Source of the DNA: an uncultured Chlorobiota bacterium
GTDB lineage: Bacteria; Bacteroidota; Bacteroidia; Bacteroidales; JAADGE01
Assembly (NCBI GenBank): GCA_947311445.1
Contig: CAMZKV010000017.1
Location: forward strand, 1 to 37,743
Direction of reading: 5' to 3'
DNA length: 37,743 nucleotides
The translations under genes and the position numbers were made by a program. Under the pieces are notes generated by a model. That model did no database searches and was not told the origin of the DNA. It saw only the letters and a list, made by a program, of their open reading frames with translations. Of the stretch, positions 11,173 to 28,551 are shown in pieces; the first letter of the stretch is position 1; the number at the start of each line of letters is the position of its first letter.

Positions 11173-11460
11173 CTATTTCCTAATAATCATTTCCCTAAGA
11201 AACTTTATTTCTTCTTCAAGACTAGAAATACGTTTATCATACATTGTAACTAGCTTATCAGATATATAATTGTTAAAAGTATGATACTTCCCAGATTGTG
11301 GGCTATTATTAAAAACCATGCTATCATTAAAATTAATTAAATCAACAGGTTCAATTTCTAATATTTTTGAAATTATAGCAATTCTATCCCAATCTAATTT
11401 TGTTTCATTACGTTCAATTTTACTATATGCTCTTTGAGAAATTTCTAAAACATTCGCCAT
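11173..11460 (-). CDS. XRE-family regulator, readable part of an interrupted gene
   Basis: Small helix-turn-helix protein. From the ATG at 11460 it has 95 residues: helix-turn-helix residues with SQRAYSKIERNETKLDWDRI, a bridging segment (EIEPVDLINF), then a C-terminal amphipathic coiled coil around RISSLEEEIKFLREMI. This start would lose the first helix and half of the second. Upstream in the same frame the missing part (EKIRELKGFTQDY) is intact and preceded by an ATG at 11511, but codon 4 is TGA. As read, the gene therefore makes either a truncated product or none. It lies divergently from the lipoprotein/ABC cassette (200 bases between the 11460 start and the lipoprotein start), so it is the likely cassette regulator. 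Confidence 0.7.
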   Translation of the reverse strand: MANVLEISQRAYSKIERNETKLDWDRIAIISKILEIEPVDLINFNDSMVFNNSPQSGKYHTFNNYISDKLVTMYDKRISSLEEEIKFLREMIIRK

Positions 11461-11511
11461 ATAATCCTGTGTAAAACCTTTTAACTCTCTAATTTTTTCT
11501 CAAATTTTCAT
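11461..11511 (-). pseudogene. Separated N-terminal codons of the XRE regulator with in-frame TGA
   Basis: On the minus strand the expected start ATG (11511-11509) is followed by AAA, ATT, then TGA (11502-11500), then GAA AAA ATT AGA GAG TTA AAA and onward in frame into the gene. The residues after the stop are a typical first XRE helix. A promoter with good spacing starts transcription upstream of this ATG, so 11511 is the natural start. One base change (for example AGA or CGA to TGA) or a sequencing error would explain it. TGA is an ordinary stop elsewhere in the cassette (12993-12995). Confidence 0.7.
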
Positions 11512-11534
11512 AACAGATAGTATTAATTTAGAAC

Positions 11535-11566
11535 CAAAAGTATGCTATTTAGAACTTTAAAACAAA
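11535..11566 (-). promoter_or_regulatory. Promoter of the XRE regulator gene
   Basis: On the minus strand, TTTG (11566-11563), 20 bases, then TACTTTTG (11542-11535). Both boxes match the Bacteroidota consensus. The predicted start near 11529 leaves a leader of roughly 18 bases before the ATG at 11511. Confidence 0.6.
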
Positions 11567-11660
11567 CAAAATTAAAATTTATTTGTTTTTATTTGCAAAC
11601 TGAAAATTGTGCACAAGTTTTCATGTAAATATTTATTTTTAACTTTAAAAACAAATTAAA

Positions 11661-12290
11661 ATGAAAAAATTATTTAGTTTTGCAATGATATTAGCAATTT
11701 TAATATCTTTTATTGGATGTAATGAGAACACAAAAGTTACAGATGAAGCAATTGAACATAATTGTTTGAATGATAATAACATTAAAAGTATTTCTGCAAT
11801 ACAAAACAGTTTATTAGTTTCTGTTAAAAACAATTTTAACGCAAATAAAAACTTAAATGAAGTTGATTTTGATAATGCACAAGTTGTCGAGTATACTAGT
11901 GTTGATATAAAAGGAATTATTGCTGATTTTAAAGAAAATAGTAATAAAACATTTGTTGCATACTATGATGAAGATGATAATTATTATGGGGTAGACTTTA
12001 TTCTGGAAACGTCAGAAAATAACGGTATTAGAACTACAATAATGTCAAATAATAGTGAAATACAACAATTAAGAGTAAAAGCTAATATTGAAACAAATAA
12101 AATTATAGAAGTGCAATTATTAAACCCTGACAAAGATTATAGCGCGTTTGCTGCTTGTGTTGGCTATGCCTGGTCTGCTTGCATGGATGATCCTGGATGC
12201 CGAGCAATATGTTTGGCTACTTTCCCAGCTTGTTGGAGTGCAATTGTAGCTGGATGTGCTGTTTCTCCAATAGCACCTTCTGAACATTAG
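11661..12290 (+). CDS. Lipoprotein with six-cysteine C-terminal peptide, putative bacteriocin-like precursor
   Basis: 209 residues; I do not recognise a named family with confidence. Residues 1-19 form a signal peptide ending in ISFIG|C, so Cys20 is a lipidation site. Residues 21-160 are a hydrophilic, Asn/Glu-rich region with beta-strand-like stretches (TFVAYYDEDDNYYGVDFIL). Residues about 161-209 change character. They are small, hydrophobic and Cys-rich, with Cys166, 174, 180, 184, 191 and 199 set among Ala, Trp and Gly. Such a pro-region plus Cys-rich tail recalls precursors of disulfide-bonded bacteriocins (fulvocin C-related or halocin C8-like proteins are comparisons, not matches I can prove). 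The ABC ATPase gene starts 18 bases downstream, and the last gene of the operon is a thioredoxin-like protein. A weak promoter candidate is TTTG at 11592-11595, 19 bases, then AAGTTTTC at 11615-11622. Confidence 0.75.
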   Translation: MKKLFSFAMILAILISFIGCNENTKVTDEAIEHNCLNDNNIKSISAIQNSLLVSVKNNFNANKNLNEVDFDNAQVVEYTSVDIKGIIADFKENSNKTFVAYYDEDDNYYGVDFILETSENNGIRTTIMSNNSEIQQLRVKANIETNKIIEVQLLNPDKDYSAFAACVGYAWSACMDDPGCRAICLATFPACWSAIVAGCAVSPIAPSEH

Positions 12291-12308
12291 TTTAAATATA
12301 TTTTTATA

Positions 12309-12995
12309 ATGATATTATTAAAAAATATTACAAAAAAATACAAGTCTAAAAAAGCATTAAAAAATTTTAACCTTGAAGTAAAGAAAGGTGAAGTTCATGC
12401 TTTAATAGGACCAAATGGCAGTGGTAAATCCACTGCCATTGGCATTATTTTATCTTTGTTAAATTACGATGGAATTGCACAAGTAGGGGTTGAACAAATA
12501 AAAATAGGTGTTAGTTTAGAAAATGACTTATTCTTTGAAAGATTATCGGCTTATGATAATTTAAAATTTTCTGCAATATCTAAAAGTATCCCAGCACAAG
12601 ATATTGATAGAGTTGTTGAAATGTTATATCTTGAAAGTGAAATTAACAATAAAGTAAAGACTCTTTCGAAAGGAAATCGCAGAAAAGTTTCTTTGGCTTC
12701 TGCTTTACTTGGCAATTCTGAATTATATATTTTTGACGAACCTCTTTCCGGTCTTGACCATGACAATATAGTTCTTTTTAGAAAACTAATTATTAAATTA
12801 AAAGAACAAGGGAAAACAATTTTAATTAGTAGCCACATTTTATCTGAGATTGAAAAAATGTGTACTAACTTTACATTTATTTATAGAGGGCAGATGCGAG
12901 AAAGTTTTAGTTCAAAAAAATTGTTTGAAAAATACGCATCATTAGAAGTTGCATATGATAAAATAATACCAAAAAGTATCAAATTCCAAATATGA
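12309..12995 (+). CDS. ABC transporter ATP-binding protein
   Basis: 228-residue cytoplasmic ATPase. Walker A is GPNGSGKST at 34-42, the signature loop is LSKGN at 119-123 (a variant of LSGGQ), Walker B is LYIFDEPLSGLD at 139-150, and the switch histidine lies in SSHILSE at 174-180. The region between the P-loop and the signature is short (MLYLESEINNKVKTLSKGN), as in BcrA/CcmA-type exporters with a separate ABC-2 permease. Its TGA stop overlaps the ATG of the permease by four bases (ATGA), so the two are translationally coupled and form one transporter. The context suggests export of, or self-protection against, the upstream Cys-rich peptide; this is inference. Confidence 0.9.
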   Translation: MILLKNITKKYKSKKALKNFNLEVKKGEVHALIGPNGSGKSTAIGIILSLLNYDGIAQVGVEQIKIGVSLENDLFFERLSAYDNLKFSAISKSIPAQDIDRVVEMLYLESEINNKVKTLSKGNRRKVSLASALLGNSELYIFDEPLSGLDHDNIVLFRKLIIKLKEQGKTILISSHILSEIEKMCTNFTFIYRGQMRESFSSKKLFEKYASLEVAYDKIIPKSIKFQI

Positions 12996-13726
12996 AATAC
13001 TCTGATTTAATAAAACTTGAAATTATAAAAGCCAAAAGTATGAGAATGCTTTTAATTTTATTACTGTATTTTATTATAAGTACTTCATTTTTTTATTTTA
13101 TGGGTGCTGCAATGCGTGATATTAAAACTATTTCTCTGAGTGATAATTCTTTTATTGAGCAAAATTATTTAAGTGCAGTATCATTTTTTTTTGTTGTTTT
13201 AATTATTAATATCGGTATTGATTATAAAAAAATATATGCAAGCCAAATTGTTTCCGGTATTAGTAAAAATAATTTTATTATTGGAAAATTTTTGTTTATA
13301 ATATTATTTGCTTTTGCTGTAGTTTGTGTGGAATTAGTAAAATTTTTTATAATTCAATTCTTTCTTTTTAACCAATTTAACATTGATATTGAAGTTTTAT
13401 ATAAGTTGTCTTTTGTATTTTTTCTTCTTTTATTAATTATAGGTTCTTATGCGTTTGTTATTGTAACAATAATAAAAAAAACTATTATTTCAATTGTTGT
13501 TTTTTATATTTTAACTAAGATAGAGGAGGTCATTAATATTTACCAAAGTTTTTATAACAAATTTCCCTTCATAGATTATTTACCATACACTCTCACAACA
13601 AATTTAATTAAAAACACAATTTTAAATGTTGAACATTTTTTTATATTAATGACTTATTTCTTTGCTTCAATATTTTTTATCAGTTATACTCTAAATAAAA
13701 ATGAAATAAAACTTAATAATGACTAG
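12992..13726 (+). CDS. ABC-2-like permease
   Basis: 244-residue, highly hydrophobic protein with about six predicted membrane helices: near 17-37, 62-80, 95-125, 130-155, 158-178 and 213-233. There is no large periplasmic or ATPase domain, which fits the membrane half of a BcrA/BcrB- or NatA/NatB-like exporter. A conserved sequence motif is hard to see, as usual for this group; the assignment rests on topology and coupling. It overlaps the ATPase by four bases upstream and the thioredoxin-like gene by eight bases downstream. Base composition is very AT-rich, even for this window. Confidence 0.75.
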   Translation: MKYSDLIKLEIIKAKSMRMLLILLLYFIISTSFFYFMGAAMRDIKTISLSDNSFIEQNYLSAVSFFFVVLIINIGIDYKKIYASQIVSGISKNNFIIGKFLFIILFAFAVVCVELVKFFIIQFFLFNQFNIDIEVLYKLSFVFFLLLLIIGSYAFVIVTIIKKTIISIVVFYILTKIEEVINIYQSFYNKFPFIDYLPYTLTTNLIKNTILNVEHFFILMTYFFASIFFISYTLNKNEIKLNND

Positions 13727-14255
13727 ATTTGTAAAACTTTTAATATTTCCTTTTTTGTTTGCTGCATTAATTTTTTATTTTAATCAAAAAATTACATTAT
13801 CAATTCTACAAAAAAATGCAAAGCAAATTAAGGAAATAAATGTATTTAATAAATTAAAATCAGGTAATATAATTATTAAAAATAAACATATCTTTAATAA
13901 AGATACAGTGTATGTTATTAATTTATGGGGAGCAAGATGTAAACCCTGTATTAAAGAAATGCCTGAACTAAATAAGTTATACGATAAACACAAGCAAAAA
14001 CCTGTTAGATTTATTGCTTTAAGCAGATATAATGACGATTCTATTAAATTTTCAAAATTAAATATTGACTTTAAATTTAATAAATATTACCATGAAGGAA
14101 ACCTCTTTGATTATTTTCAAAACTTAAACCTTTCAAAAAACAAAGTTATACCTGTTACAATTCTTATTAATAAAGAGGGAACTATTGAATATTATTTAAA
14201 AGGAGCAAATGAAAATAATATAAAATTTTTGGATAATTATTTATCGAACATATAG
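13719..14255 (+). CDS. Membrane-anchored thioredoxin-like protein (TlpA/ResA type)
   Basis: 178 residues. A hydrophobic segment at about 5-21 anchors it in the inner membrane with the rest in the periplasm. The thioredoxin fold follows: VYVINLWGARCKPCIKEMPEL holds the redox pair Cys74-Lys-Pro-Cys77, and VIPVTIL has the expected cis-proline. The family reduces or rearranges disulfides outside the cytoplasm. As the last gene of an operon whose first product carries a six-cysteine tail, it may shape or reduce the disulfides of that peptide; this is inference. It overlaps the permease gene by eight bases. Its TAG stop abuts the convergent sugar-transferase stop with no base between (TAGCTA at 14253-14258). 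Confidence 0.85.
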   Translation: MTRFVKLLIFPFLFAALIFYFNQKITLSILQKNAKQIKEINVFNKLKSGNIIIKNKHIFNKDTVYVINLWGARCKPCIKEMPELNKLYDKHKQKPVRFIALSRYNDDSIKFSKLNIDFKFNKYYHEGNLFDYFQNLNLSKNKVIPVTILINKEGTIEYYLKGANENNIKFLDNYLSNI

Positions 14256-15671
14256 CTATTTCCCATCTCTCTTTAAAACAACCAAAACTGTGTGGATTAA
14301 TATTTTAAAATCAAGATAGAGAGTCATGTTTTCAATATAAAAAATATCGTAATTCAATCTTTCAATCATCTCATCAATATTTTCGGCATAGCCGTATTTT
14401 ACTTGTCCCCACGAAGTTATACCGGGCTTCACTTTCAAAAGCCTTAAATAATGTGGGGCTCTTTTAACAATTTTGTCTATAAAAAATTGTCTTTCCGGTC
14501 TTGGTCCAACTAGTGACATATCTCCTTTTAATACATTAATGAATTGCGGAATTTCATCTAAACGAGTTTTTCGCATAAATCTTCCAAATTTTGTTATTCT
14601 GTTGTCAGAAACAGAAGATAATTGAGGTCCATTTCTTTCGGCATTGGTGTACATAGAGCGGAATTTTATAATTTTAAAAGGTTTTCCGTCTAAGCCTATT
14701 CGTTCTTGCACAAAAAACACAGGACCTTTTGAAGAAAATTTCACTCCTAATGCAGCAAAAATATATAATGGGGATAATAAAATTAATGAAAAAAAAGATG
14801 CTACAAAATCAAACACTCTTTTAAAAGATTCTTGCCAAGCTGGCATTAAATTATGAGAAATAATTATTAAAGGTGTCCCGAGAAAACTTGACATTCTAAC
14901 TCTTCCTGTAAGAATTTTAAACATACCGGGAATAACTTTTGTTATTACATTTACACCTTGAAGTTTATAAATAATTTTTTCTATTTCTTTGTGTTCAGAA
15001 GATTCAATTGCAATAATAACTTCTTCAATTTTTTCTTTTTTAATAATATTTTCAACATCATCTAAATCTCCAAGATGTTTTAGATGTTTACTTAAAACTG
15101 CATCCTTTTTATTAAAAATATTAATAAAACCAATAAATTTATAACCGTACTTTTCTTCTTGGGATGTTAATTGATGATATAGTTTTAATGCTTTTCCGTT
15201 ACTTCCTATTAATAAAGTATTAAATCCTATTTTACCTAATTCAATTCTTTTTGCGGTAATACTTGTAATAGTAAGCCTAGGAATATAGGTTAAAATAAAA
15301 TGTGCAATAAACAAGGCACCGGCAGATAAATAATAATCTTTGTATGAAAAAACAGTATCGTCAAGAATTAAAATAAAGAATATTATAATAACTCCTATAA
15401 CAGTGCTTATAAAAGTTTGCCCAAGTTCTTGCAATCTAGATTTTCGGTATATATTAGAATAATATCCAAAAGCAGAGTATATCATCAACCAAAATAATGG
15501 AAGACCAAATAAGGCAATAAAAAAACTTGTATTATAATCAATCTCAATATGAATTCCGTAGTTTATTGATTCAATATATTCTTTACGAAATAAATTAAAC
15601 AAGAACCAAGCTAATGCAGCAGCTAGATAGTCTGAGAAAAGATATTTTAAGACTTGCAGTTTTTTATTCAT
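14256..15671 (-). CDS. Polyprenyl-phosphate hexose-1-phosphate transferase (WcaJ-like)
   Basis: 471 residues. The N-terminal part has about four membrane helices, then a cytoplasmic Rossmann-like region (FNTLLIGSNGKALKLYHQL). A further hydrophobic hairpin near 285-310 leads into the bacterial sugar-transferase domain. There, FKIIKFRSM and DEIPQFINVLKGDMSLVGPRPE contain the Asp-Glu catalytic pair, and KPGITSWGQVKYGYAEN follows. The family transfers glucose-1-P or galactose-1-P from a UDP-sugar to undecaprenyl phosphate, the first step of exopolysaccharide or O-unit assembly. No other polysaccharide cluster genes are adjacent except a GT2 gene about 1.2 kb away, so this is an isolated initiating transferase. 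The sugar cannot be read from the sequence. Confidence 0.9.
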   Translation of the reverse strand: MNKKLQVLKYLFSDYLAAALAWFLFNLFRKEYIESINYGIHIEIDYNTSFFIALFGLPLFWLMIYSAFGYYSNIYRKSRLQELGQTFISTVIGVIIIFFILILDDTVFSYKDYYLSAGALFIAHFILTYIPRLTITSITAKRIELGKIGFNTLLIGSNGKALKLYHQLTSQEEKYGYKFIGFINIFNKKDAVLSKHLKHLGDLDDVENIIKKEKIEEVIIAIESSEHKEIEKIIYKLQGVNVITKVIPGMFKILTGRVRMSSFLGTPLIIISHNLMPAWQESFKRVFDFVASFFSLILLSPLYIFAALGVKFSSKGPVFFVQERIGLDGKPFKIIKFRSMYTNAERNGPQLSSVSDNRITKFGRFMRKTRLDEIPQFINVLKGDMSLVGPRPERQFFIDKIVKRAPHYLRLLKVKPGITSWGQVKYGYAENIDEMIERLNYDIFYIENMTLYLDFKILIHTVLVVLKRDGK

Positions 15672-26383: not shown

Positions 26384-26983
26384 TCAGATTTTTCTTTTAT
26401 TAAAAAATGTTTTGTTTAAGTGATTAATAGTTTTTGTAGCGTTTGTCTTCATTAGTACAGATCTTGTTTTCAGTCCTTCTTTTAAAAACACATCACTCTC
26501 AGCAATTGTTTCTGCATTTAACAATTTTTTATAGAATTTTTCATGCTTGGTACTAAAAGAATAGAGACAAGTTTCAATATCCATTTCTATAATAATTTCA
26601 ACTGTTTTCCTAATTATATCTAACAATAAACCAATATTGTTTCTATAATTCTTGTCTGTTGCAATTCTCCAAGAACTTCCTATTTTATTTGTGGATTCTT
26701 TTCTAATTAAATCTGTTTCTTCTTTAAAATATGAATCTGTATGAAGCCCGTATTCTCCATCAACAGTAACAGAATTTGTTCCAATAATTTTGCCGTCTTT
26801 TTCAGCAATAATTATTTTTGTTTCTTCAATTCTATTAAGATGAGGGTACAAATTAAGAAGATTATTTGTTTTTTTGGGACAAAGACCTGCATCAACAAAA
26901 GCATCATGTACTAAGGAATGGACTTCATTAAGACGGCTGAAATCATTTAGCACACTAATTGTGTAACTAATAGAGTTTTGCAT
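26384..26983 (-). CDS. GNAT-fold N-acyltransferase, FeeM-like
   Basis: 199 residues from the chosen start (26983). An in-frame ATG 16 codons upstream (27031) would add a short hydrophobic stretch that looks untranslated. The pattern resembles the FeeM N-acyl-amino-acid synthase branch of GNAT enzymes: a helix with EVHSLVHDAFVDAGLC, then KIIIAEKDGKIIGTNSVTVD (central strands), then LHTDSYFKEETDLIRKE (the segment FeeM relatives use near the acyl site), then the beta-bulge region SSWRIATDKNYRNN. FeeM-type enzymes join a fatty acyl chain from acyl-ACP to an amino acid or amine. The gene starts 61 bases after the histidine kinase and could be co-transcribed with it. Substrate is unknown, and a plain GNAT acetyltransferase is possible. 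Confidence 0.6.
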   Translation of the reverse strand: MQNSISYTISVLNDFSRLNEVHSLVHDAFVDAGLCPKKTNNLLNLYPHLNRIEETKIIIAEKDGKIIGTNSVTVDGEYGLHTDSYFKEETDLIRKESTNKIGSSWRIATDKNYRNNIGLLLDIIRKTVEIIIEMDIETCLYSFSTKHEKFYKKLLNAETIAESDVFLKEGLKTRSVLMKTNATKTINHLNKTFFNKRKI

Positions 26984-27044
26984 GGCAATATTTTGTGTTT
27001 TTATGCCAACAAAGATAAAAACTATTTGCAAGAAAACTCTAAAA

Positions 27045-28121
27045 TTAAATTATAATTTCTACTGATGTTCCTTCGTCTTTTTTTGAATTTACTTTTATAA
27101 ATCCGGAATGTAAGTCTATCAGACCTTTTGCAATACTCATACCTATTCCAACTCCCCTGTATAAATTATCTTTATCTTCAAATTTTCTAAAATAATCAAA
27201 GACATGAAGTAAATCTTTCTTGGAAATACCTAGCCCATTATCAGTTATCTTAATAACAGCTCTTCTATCATTTTTATAACAAGCAAGTCTTATCTCTCCA
27301 CTTTCAGAGAATTTAACTGCATTTTCAAGTATAAAGGTTATTGCTTTTTTTAACAAATCTTTATCTGCATTTATTGTTATTTTTTCAGATTTATTAAAGT
27401 CTAAAACCGGTAAAATATTTTTTGATTTAAACTTAATTTCATTTTGCAAAAAAATAAACATTTCATTTATTAAATCATTAATATTAAAATTAGTAATATT
27501 AATTTCTGATTCATTTACTTGAAGTTTTGAAAGCAGAAGTATATCATCAATTGTTTTGGTTAAATCATCAAGGCTCTTTTTTATGATATTATATTCTTTT
27601 GAGATATTAGGATACCTATTAGATAATATCTGGATGAAGCCTTCAACTGCATTAAGAGGTGTTCTAATTTCATGTGAAATATTTTGAAGAAATGAAGTTT
27701 TAAGCTCATCATTTTCCTTAGCTTTTTTTAGGGCAAGTTTTAAAGATTTTGTTTTATCTTCAACAATTTCTTCTAGTTTAATATTTAACTGGCTAAGTTT
27801 TTCTTTTTCAATATCCAAAAAATAATTTGATTCAAAAGCCCTAAATCTAAAATTACTTTGAACTTTATTTATTACAAATCCAACAAAAACAAATATTAAA
27901 GTGTTTATTATTGGTGTATAGAGATTTTTTGAAAAATAAGAATAAAAAAACAAATAAAAAACAATAAAAAATAAAAAAAGCGGAAAAAGATAAACTAAAA
28001 TAGTTTTTAAAGTATTTGTTCTAAGCTCAAGTGATATAATAAAAACAGCAATAATAATTCCTAATACATTTGTTGAAACAGAGCCTTCTCCCAAATGCAC
28101 AAAAAATTTTGCTAACATCAT
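27045..28121 (-). CDS. Sensor histidine kinase, main part (5' end in another frame)
   Basis: 358 residues as read from the first ATG in this frame. Membrane helices lie near 15-33, 38-60 and 68-86, then a coiled coil (EKEKLSQLNIKLEEIVEDKTK), then the DHp helix with QNISHEIRTPLNAVEGF (phospho-acceptor His150). The ATPase part has the N box FILENAVKFSESG at 263-275, the G1 box DNGLGIS at 294-300 and the G2 box GVGIGMSIAKGL. All catalytic boxes are intact. The frame is open upstream to 28190 and continues a membrane segment (LLTTLYHIFLVSIYV), so this start is not natural. The true N-terminus is the 79-codon piece at 28160-28399 in a different frame. No response regulator gene is adjacent. Confidence 0.88.
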   Translation of the reverse strand: MMLAKFFVHLGEGSVSTNVLGIIIAVFIISLELRTNTLKTILVYLFPLFLFFIVFYLFFYSYFSKNLYTPIINTLIFVFVGFVINKVQSNFRFRAFESNYFLDIEKEKLSQLNIKLEEIVEDKTKSLKLALKKAKENDELKTSFLQNISHEIRTPLNAVEGFIQILSNRYPNISKEYNIIKKSLDDLTKTIDDILLLSKLQVNESEINITNFNINDLINEMFIFLQNEIKFKSKNILPVLDFNKSEKITINADKDLLKKAITFILENAVKFSESGEIRLACYKNDRRAVIKITDNGLGISKKDLLHVFDYFRKFEDKDNLYRGVGIGMSIAKGLIDLHSGFIKVNSKKDEGTSVEIII

Positions 28122-28159
28122 TACATAAATACTTACTAAAAAGATATGGTATAAAGTTG

Positions 28160-28399
28160 TTAATAATGATTTATCTTTTTTTTTTGATAATTATTTAGAA
28201 AAAGTATAATAATTGCAAGGAGTAAAGAAGGAAGTCTTGTGCACATAGCAATTGTACTTTTTCTTAAAAAAAAGTCTAATAGCATTAACAAAACGAGCAA
28301 AATAATACCCATAGAAACATAAATATTTAGACGTTTCACAGTTATATCATTGATATAATTTTTATACTCTAAATTTATTATTGATGATTTATTTCTCAT
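28160..28399 (-). CDS. N-terminal fragment of the histidine kinase (frameshifted)
   Basis: 79 codons encoding a cytosolic start and two membrane helices (YVSMGIILLVLLMLLDFFL at about 28-46 and RLPSLLLAIIILFLNNY at 55-71), ending in QKKKINHY and a stop. The protein stops a few residues after a run of ten A (28176-28185). With eleven A, or eight, the frame would pass into the kinase frame with KKKDKSLLTTLYHIF, giving a six-helix sensor of about 450 residues. It has its own promoter upstream (28521-28551), whereas the kinase piece has none. It is therefore best read as the 5' end of the same gene, not as a separate small membrane protein. Confidence 0.75.
   Translation of the reverse strand: MRNKSSIINLEYKNYINDITVKRLNIYVSMGIILLVLLMLLDFFLRKSTIAMCTRLPSLLLAIIILFLNNYQKKKINHY
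28176..28185 (-). repeat. Ten-A homopolymer at the kinase frame break
   Basis: On the minus strand the run reads C, ten A, G. It sits exactly where the two reading frames of the kinase overlap (28160-28193). Such a run could be a site of replication slippage, transcriptional slippage, or a sequencing error. Confidence 0.8.
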
Positions 28400-28520: not shown

Positions 28521-28551
28521 CAAAGATATAAAGCGTTTTTTAAATATCAAA
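28521..28551 (-). promoter_or_regulatory. Promoter of the histidine kinase gene
   Basis: On the minus strand, TTTG (28551-28548), 19 bases, then TATCTTTG (28528-28521), an exact consensus match. The start near 28515 leaves a leader of about 115 bases before the ATG at 28399. Confidence 0.65.

Follow-up and report, generated by a model that had tools for sequence, protein, structure and literature searches.

A sensor histidine kinase gene split between two reading frames at a ten-A tract: off allele, assembly error or switch?

Introduction

When a gene for a sensor histidine kinase changes reading frame within a run of ten A, the break may be a switch, a leak, a lesion or a mistake in the assembly, and the locus described here raises the question of which of these applies. 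The gene lies on contig C17, the whole of which (37,743 nt, 28.5% GC) was analysed and is referred to below as the window. The AT-rich genome is 2.75 Mb in 113 contigs and 93.75% complete, and we read its phylum as Bacteroidota from the type IX secretion signals (Por_Secre_tail, CHU_C) that a Pfam profile search detected. A preliminary description of the locus had proposed that slippage or phase variation at the tract could allow the kinase to be made in only a fraction of transcripts or cells.

Results

The kinase gene is divided between two frames on the minus strand that overlap at 28160-28190, around the A10 tract (Table 1). The 5' frame, of 79 amino acids, terminates in ..NNYQKKKINHY; the 3' frame carries HisKA (3.8e-14) and HATPase_c (2.4e-17), both above the Pfam cut-off, and all of the catalytic boxes (H, N, G1, F and G2), which are visible in the alignment of orthologues. 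The kinase gene here lacks a single unbroken frame that includes the sensor part. The preliminary description had stated that two frames of one sensor kinase meet at ten A and that one added A, or the loss of two, would join them; the first is seen directly in the letters and the arithmetic of the second holds from the overlap. Its further claim, that the joined product would be a six-helix kinase with all catalytic boxes, agrees with the domain matches and with an AlphaFold model of the whole protein of the sister genome (nine sequences, mean pLDDT 78.7), which has six helices. On this model the break is predicted to sit in a loop that is rich in lysine and connects helices 2 and 3. Nearly all of the 50 matches listed in a structure search were to catalytic parts of known kinases, and the sensor part was not informed by them.

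A promoter of the form TTTG-N19-TATCTTTG, matching what we take to be the Bacteroidota consensus, precedes the 5' piece, and a search for TAnnTTTG on the gene's strand inside the kinase gene returned no match, in keeping with the earlier statement that only the 5' piece has a promoter. A generic sigma-70 scan gave no excess (15 found versus 16.2 expected). The first ATG of the 3' piece, 39 nt past the stop of the 5' piece, is a candidate start from which that piece might be translated.

Table 1. Features of the split kinase locus, in coordinates of the window
Feature	Position	Strand	Remarks
FeeM-like N-acyl amino acid synthase	26384..27031	-	PF21926 8.4e-23; next gene downstream of kinase
3' piece, open frame	27045..28190	-	helices 3 to 6, HisKA, HATPase_c; first ATG 28121
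5' piece, 79 aa + stop	28160..28399	-	ATG 28399 to TAA 28162-28160; sensor helices 1 and 2, from sister-protein model
A_AAA_AAG heptamer, 0 frame	28175..28181	-	codons CAA AAA AAA AAG ATA; shift-prone site according to PMC5009743
A10 tract at frame break	28176..28185	- (T10 on +)	longest homopolymer of window
Bacteroidota-type promoter, TTTG-N19-TATCTTTG	28521..28551 (28551-28521)	-	both boxes identical in sister

Each species was represented by one genome in the comparison, the sister species by G004 (contig CAMZKL010000051.1; approximately 94% DNA identity). Its kinase gene is whole and shares 93% DNA identity with that of the window over the gene. At the break the sister reads TTT CCG AAA AAA AAA GAT and the window TAT CAA AAA AAA AAG ATA, one base fewer; the sister tract is thus A9, in frame. 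Either a once longer tract may have lost an A, or the adjacent C may have been deleted; from the sister form the latter needs, as far as the tract is concerned, only that deletion and a single synonymous change. A search with the 3' piece matched all 40 genomes (this one included), mostly through general kinases. A search of 21 genomes of the family with the whole sister protein (cut-off E <= 1e-45) gave matches in 11, namely the sister, the window genome and nine others. An internal stop was found in one of these 11 only, the window genome; in G013 the contig ends short of the break site. Among these genomes the break is shared by no second species, and the tract is not kept outside the sister: it is absent from the DNA of the next orthologue, and the loops of the other orthologues are without three consecutive lysines.

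The reliability of the assembly at such tracts was assessed from 141 kb aligned with the sister in four contigs, covering 106 ORFs of the window genome with the kinase interval added by hand. The aligned genes contain 240 A/T runs of at least 7 (164 of 7, 65 of 8, 8 of 9 and 3 of 10; runs in the 3' kinase ORF were counted twice and those lying 30 nt or less from an ORF end were omitted), and a frame change occurs at one of the 240, the kinase tract. Further, 315,572 bases, made up of stretches picked for their A10 runs together with neighbours for the sister comparison and including the window, hold 38 runs of at least 10, with 11 inside ORFs of at least 100 aa and 27, the kinase tract among them, outside. 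All 11 of the former, of length 10-14, are in frame, and their hosts include uvrC, coaBC, queA, gmd and an amylase-like gene; translations were inspected for 19 of the 38 runs, and a further break among the others is possible. An A14 lies in frame within coaBC (L075:3506-3519, contig C5), and uvrC, queA and gmd each hold an A10. Frame errors being rare in this assembly, the kinase break is probably real, and we infer that the DNA itself carries ten A. The assembly handles long A/T tracts well; an error at this particular tract is less likely.

The tract by itself marks nothing special, given the A10-A14 runs that stand in frame in housekeeping genes. Runs of A10 are not unusual genome-wide (73 and 71 overlapping hits), and the window has fewer runs of nine A than its shuffles do (7 versus 34). 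The unusual feature of the kinase A10 is that it breaks a gene.

Of the 107 sister ORFs compared, two have an internal break in the window genome and both are kinases, one of them having been fetched on purpose, while none of the 106 ORFs of the window genome is broken internally in the sister. The second of these histidine kinases (L071:8118-8885; contig C37, 47117-47884) has a GAA to TAA change past its HisKA part, at a position where the sister frame stays open; it was fetched because a first search had shown its stop and is not an unbiased draw. As this stop is beyond repair by slippage, loss of a kinase by plain mutation does occur in this genome. Six breaks had been flagged among the 107, of which four, all at amino acids 2-17, were taken as differences in start site. 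Of these apparent breaks, the one at a gene that we presume to be htpG lies just before an ATG, and a tract at L070, close to a gene end, was examined and not counted as a break.

The dnaX gene (L088:2308-3516, contig C22) was considered as a second break at an A tract. It is 402 aa long and ends shortly after an A11, whereas the frames of seven genus mates, counting matches that do not end at a contig end, are open for 567-604 aa, and that of the sister for 570 aa. There is no frame change at the dnaX tract; instead, homology to the sister is lost approximately 30 nt beyond it, close to where the contig ends. The candidate was rejected as a junction or insertion and not slippage. Elsewhere in the window, a block of approximately 3 kb (11181-14256) has no match at the corresponding place in the sister contig.

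The age of the break was examined through substitutions. Against the sister, dN/dS of the 3' piece is 0.32, below 1 (Fisher p 1e-5), with 0.43 for its membrane part and 0.21 for its catalytic part; that of the 5' piece is 0.49, and 19 other genes range from 0.02 to 0.24. The kinase thus ranks first in dN/dS among the genes aligned, which fits either relaxed constraint or a fast-evolving sensor. Polarisation with eight orthologues assigned 13 derived residues of the 3' piece to the window branch and 12 to the sister branch, with 9 ambiguous; for the 5' piece the figures are 3, 3 and 4. Neutral decay along the whole branch would predict approximately 61 changes and is rejected (p 3e-4, 25 assigned sites); decay along half of the branch is compatible if all nine ambiguous residues are given to the window (p 0.12). 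Since amino-acid change in the 3' piece is equal on both branches, either the break is of recent date or selection still acts on the gene; from these counts we regard the break as probably recent.

Two routes could rejoin the frames in expression. One A added by RNA polymerase at the A10 would restore the kinase frame, and in transcripts of E. coli and Buchnera insertions of a single base predominate at A/T runs and become more frequent with run length (PMC5574713). A -1 ribosomal shift at the 0-frame A_AAA_AAG, a site overlooked in the preliminary description, would do the same; this heptamer is highly shift-prone where there is a sole tRNA-Lys (PMC5009743). Here tRNA-Lys(UUU) was the only tRNA-Lys found among the tRNA loci read (26 of 30 loci and the window; of 34 tRNA matches, two on C81 and C36 were unread). 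No stimulating RNA structure was found downstream of the heptamer, the fold being no better than shuffles (z 0.02). Loss of one base from AAA AAA AAA GAT by itself creates both the A_AAA_AAG and the need for an added A, and so neither feature is a sign of design. By either route the locus may leak some full-length kinase.

Directly after the kinase, on the same strand, stands a gene for a FeeM-like protein in all 10 of the genus genomes that have the kinase. It occurs in 11 of the 21 genomes, all of this genus, and neither of the two kinases examined from further afield has a FeeM-like match next to it. In the window its listed start is the TTG at 27031; an ATG approximately 48 nt further in is likelier. 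The protein has no NCBIfam match, and a sequence search at E <= 0.1 gave no relative of solved structure. The arrangement is reminiscent of LuxM/LuxN, where a synthase stands next to its sensor, and the interval 26384-28399 could possibly encode a pair of signal synthase and sensor. A bolder version, in which the kinase senses an acyl-amino-acid signal that is common to the genus and produced by the FeeM-like synthase and the A10 renders sensing leaky or switchable, such that only some cells or few transcripts respond, seems to us very doubtful. The gene pair may nevertheless prove a more useful lead than the frameshift.

Discussion

The account that we hold on balance to be the likelier is that of a recent off allele, either a pseudogene in the making or a variant that segregates within the population, perhaps leaky or reversible. 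The ancestral state would have been one conserved gene for a six-helix sensor histidine kinase, in which a recent net loss of one base from the A-rich lysine codons of the loop between helices 2 and 3 would have shifted the downstream frame. A small share of full-length kinase might still be made through +1 A slippage or a -1 shift, and we would see in such a leak a side effect of the codon run and not a programmed device. The nonsense codon in the C37 kinase favours ordinary loss of a kinase, while the intact catalytic boxes and open 3' frame would be seen in a functional leaky gene too. The off allele thus ranks as most likely, followed in order by assembly error, phase variation and functional slippage or shifting.

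An assembly or sequencing error, by which the real tract would be one base longer and the kinase gene whole, we consider unlikely. Such errors usually fall at long homopolymers, all other orthologues are whole, and in a survey of frame transitions most singletons that have homologues are expected to stem from sequencing errors (PMC3711429); yet no other of the 240 A/T runs of at least 7 showed a frame change, 11 other runs of 10-14 are in frame inside ORFs, and the deletion of one C from a CCG codon run like that of the sister is as simple as a miscount of A. Under phase variation, slipped-strand replication would alter the tract length and toggle the kinase within the population. DNA polymerase is prone to slip on poly-A/T tracts (PMC3711429), a precedent exists in FlgS, a sensor kinase of Campylobacter jejuni that is turned on and off at such tracts (PMC7677240), and the promoter and both kinase pieces are retained here; but with a shortest derivation from the sister form that need not invoke slippage on A, a tract that is not kept beyond the sister, a sister A9 that is in frame, and in-frame A10-A14 runs in the housekeeping genes uvrC, coaBC and queA, we find this reading rather improbable.

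Least probable of these, in our estimate, is a functional role for slippage in transcription or for a -1 ribosomal shift, by which truncated and full-length products would be made in a set ratio. Either event would rejoin the frames; the 11 A of Citrobacter rodentium tssM1, with approximately 20% frameshifting, provide a precedent (PMC4256274), and the rise of insertions with run length and the apparently sole tRNA-Lys also suit it. Against this, no relative shares the break, the sister loop is read in one frame, structure downstream is lacking, and any loss of a single base in this codon run gives the same features, so that the fit is automatic. Of the original proposal, the split, the joining arithmetic, the kinase and the promoter hold. 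The tract is long enough for slippage or phase variation, and either may occur; as a selected mechanism neither finds support here, with the sister whole at A9, distant orthologues without the tract, and A10-A14 in frame elsewhere. An ordinary frameshift of recent origin is the simplest account.

As a frameshift, the off allele that we favour would be nothing unusual. The genome, however, is AT-rich and has many in-frame tracts of at least ten A inside genes, and as a clean and recent example the kinase break could be used to gauge the leakiness of such breaks outside E. coli and Buchnera.

Several described systems resemble the locus in part. FlgS of C. jejuni is likewise a sensor histidine kinase whose frame shifts at homopolymers of A/T, but there switching was shown experimentally, whereas the window kinase is known from one genome (PMC7677240). 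In tssM1 of C. rodentium the interruption also lies just past a long A run and an added A restores the frame; it differs in that its run has 11 A, slippage was shown in mRNA and both products are needed (PMC4256274). With dnaX of E. coli the locus shares the same 0-frame A_AAA_AAG, here alongside a tRNA-Lys(UUU) that is the only one found, but no stimulating structure was seen at the window site and its break is not conserved (PMC5009743). The singleton frame breaks catalogued with GeneTack form a class within a survey and not a mechanism, and they share with the window kinase an isolated break in one species whose homologues are whole elsewhere (PMC3711429).
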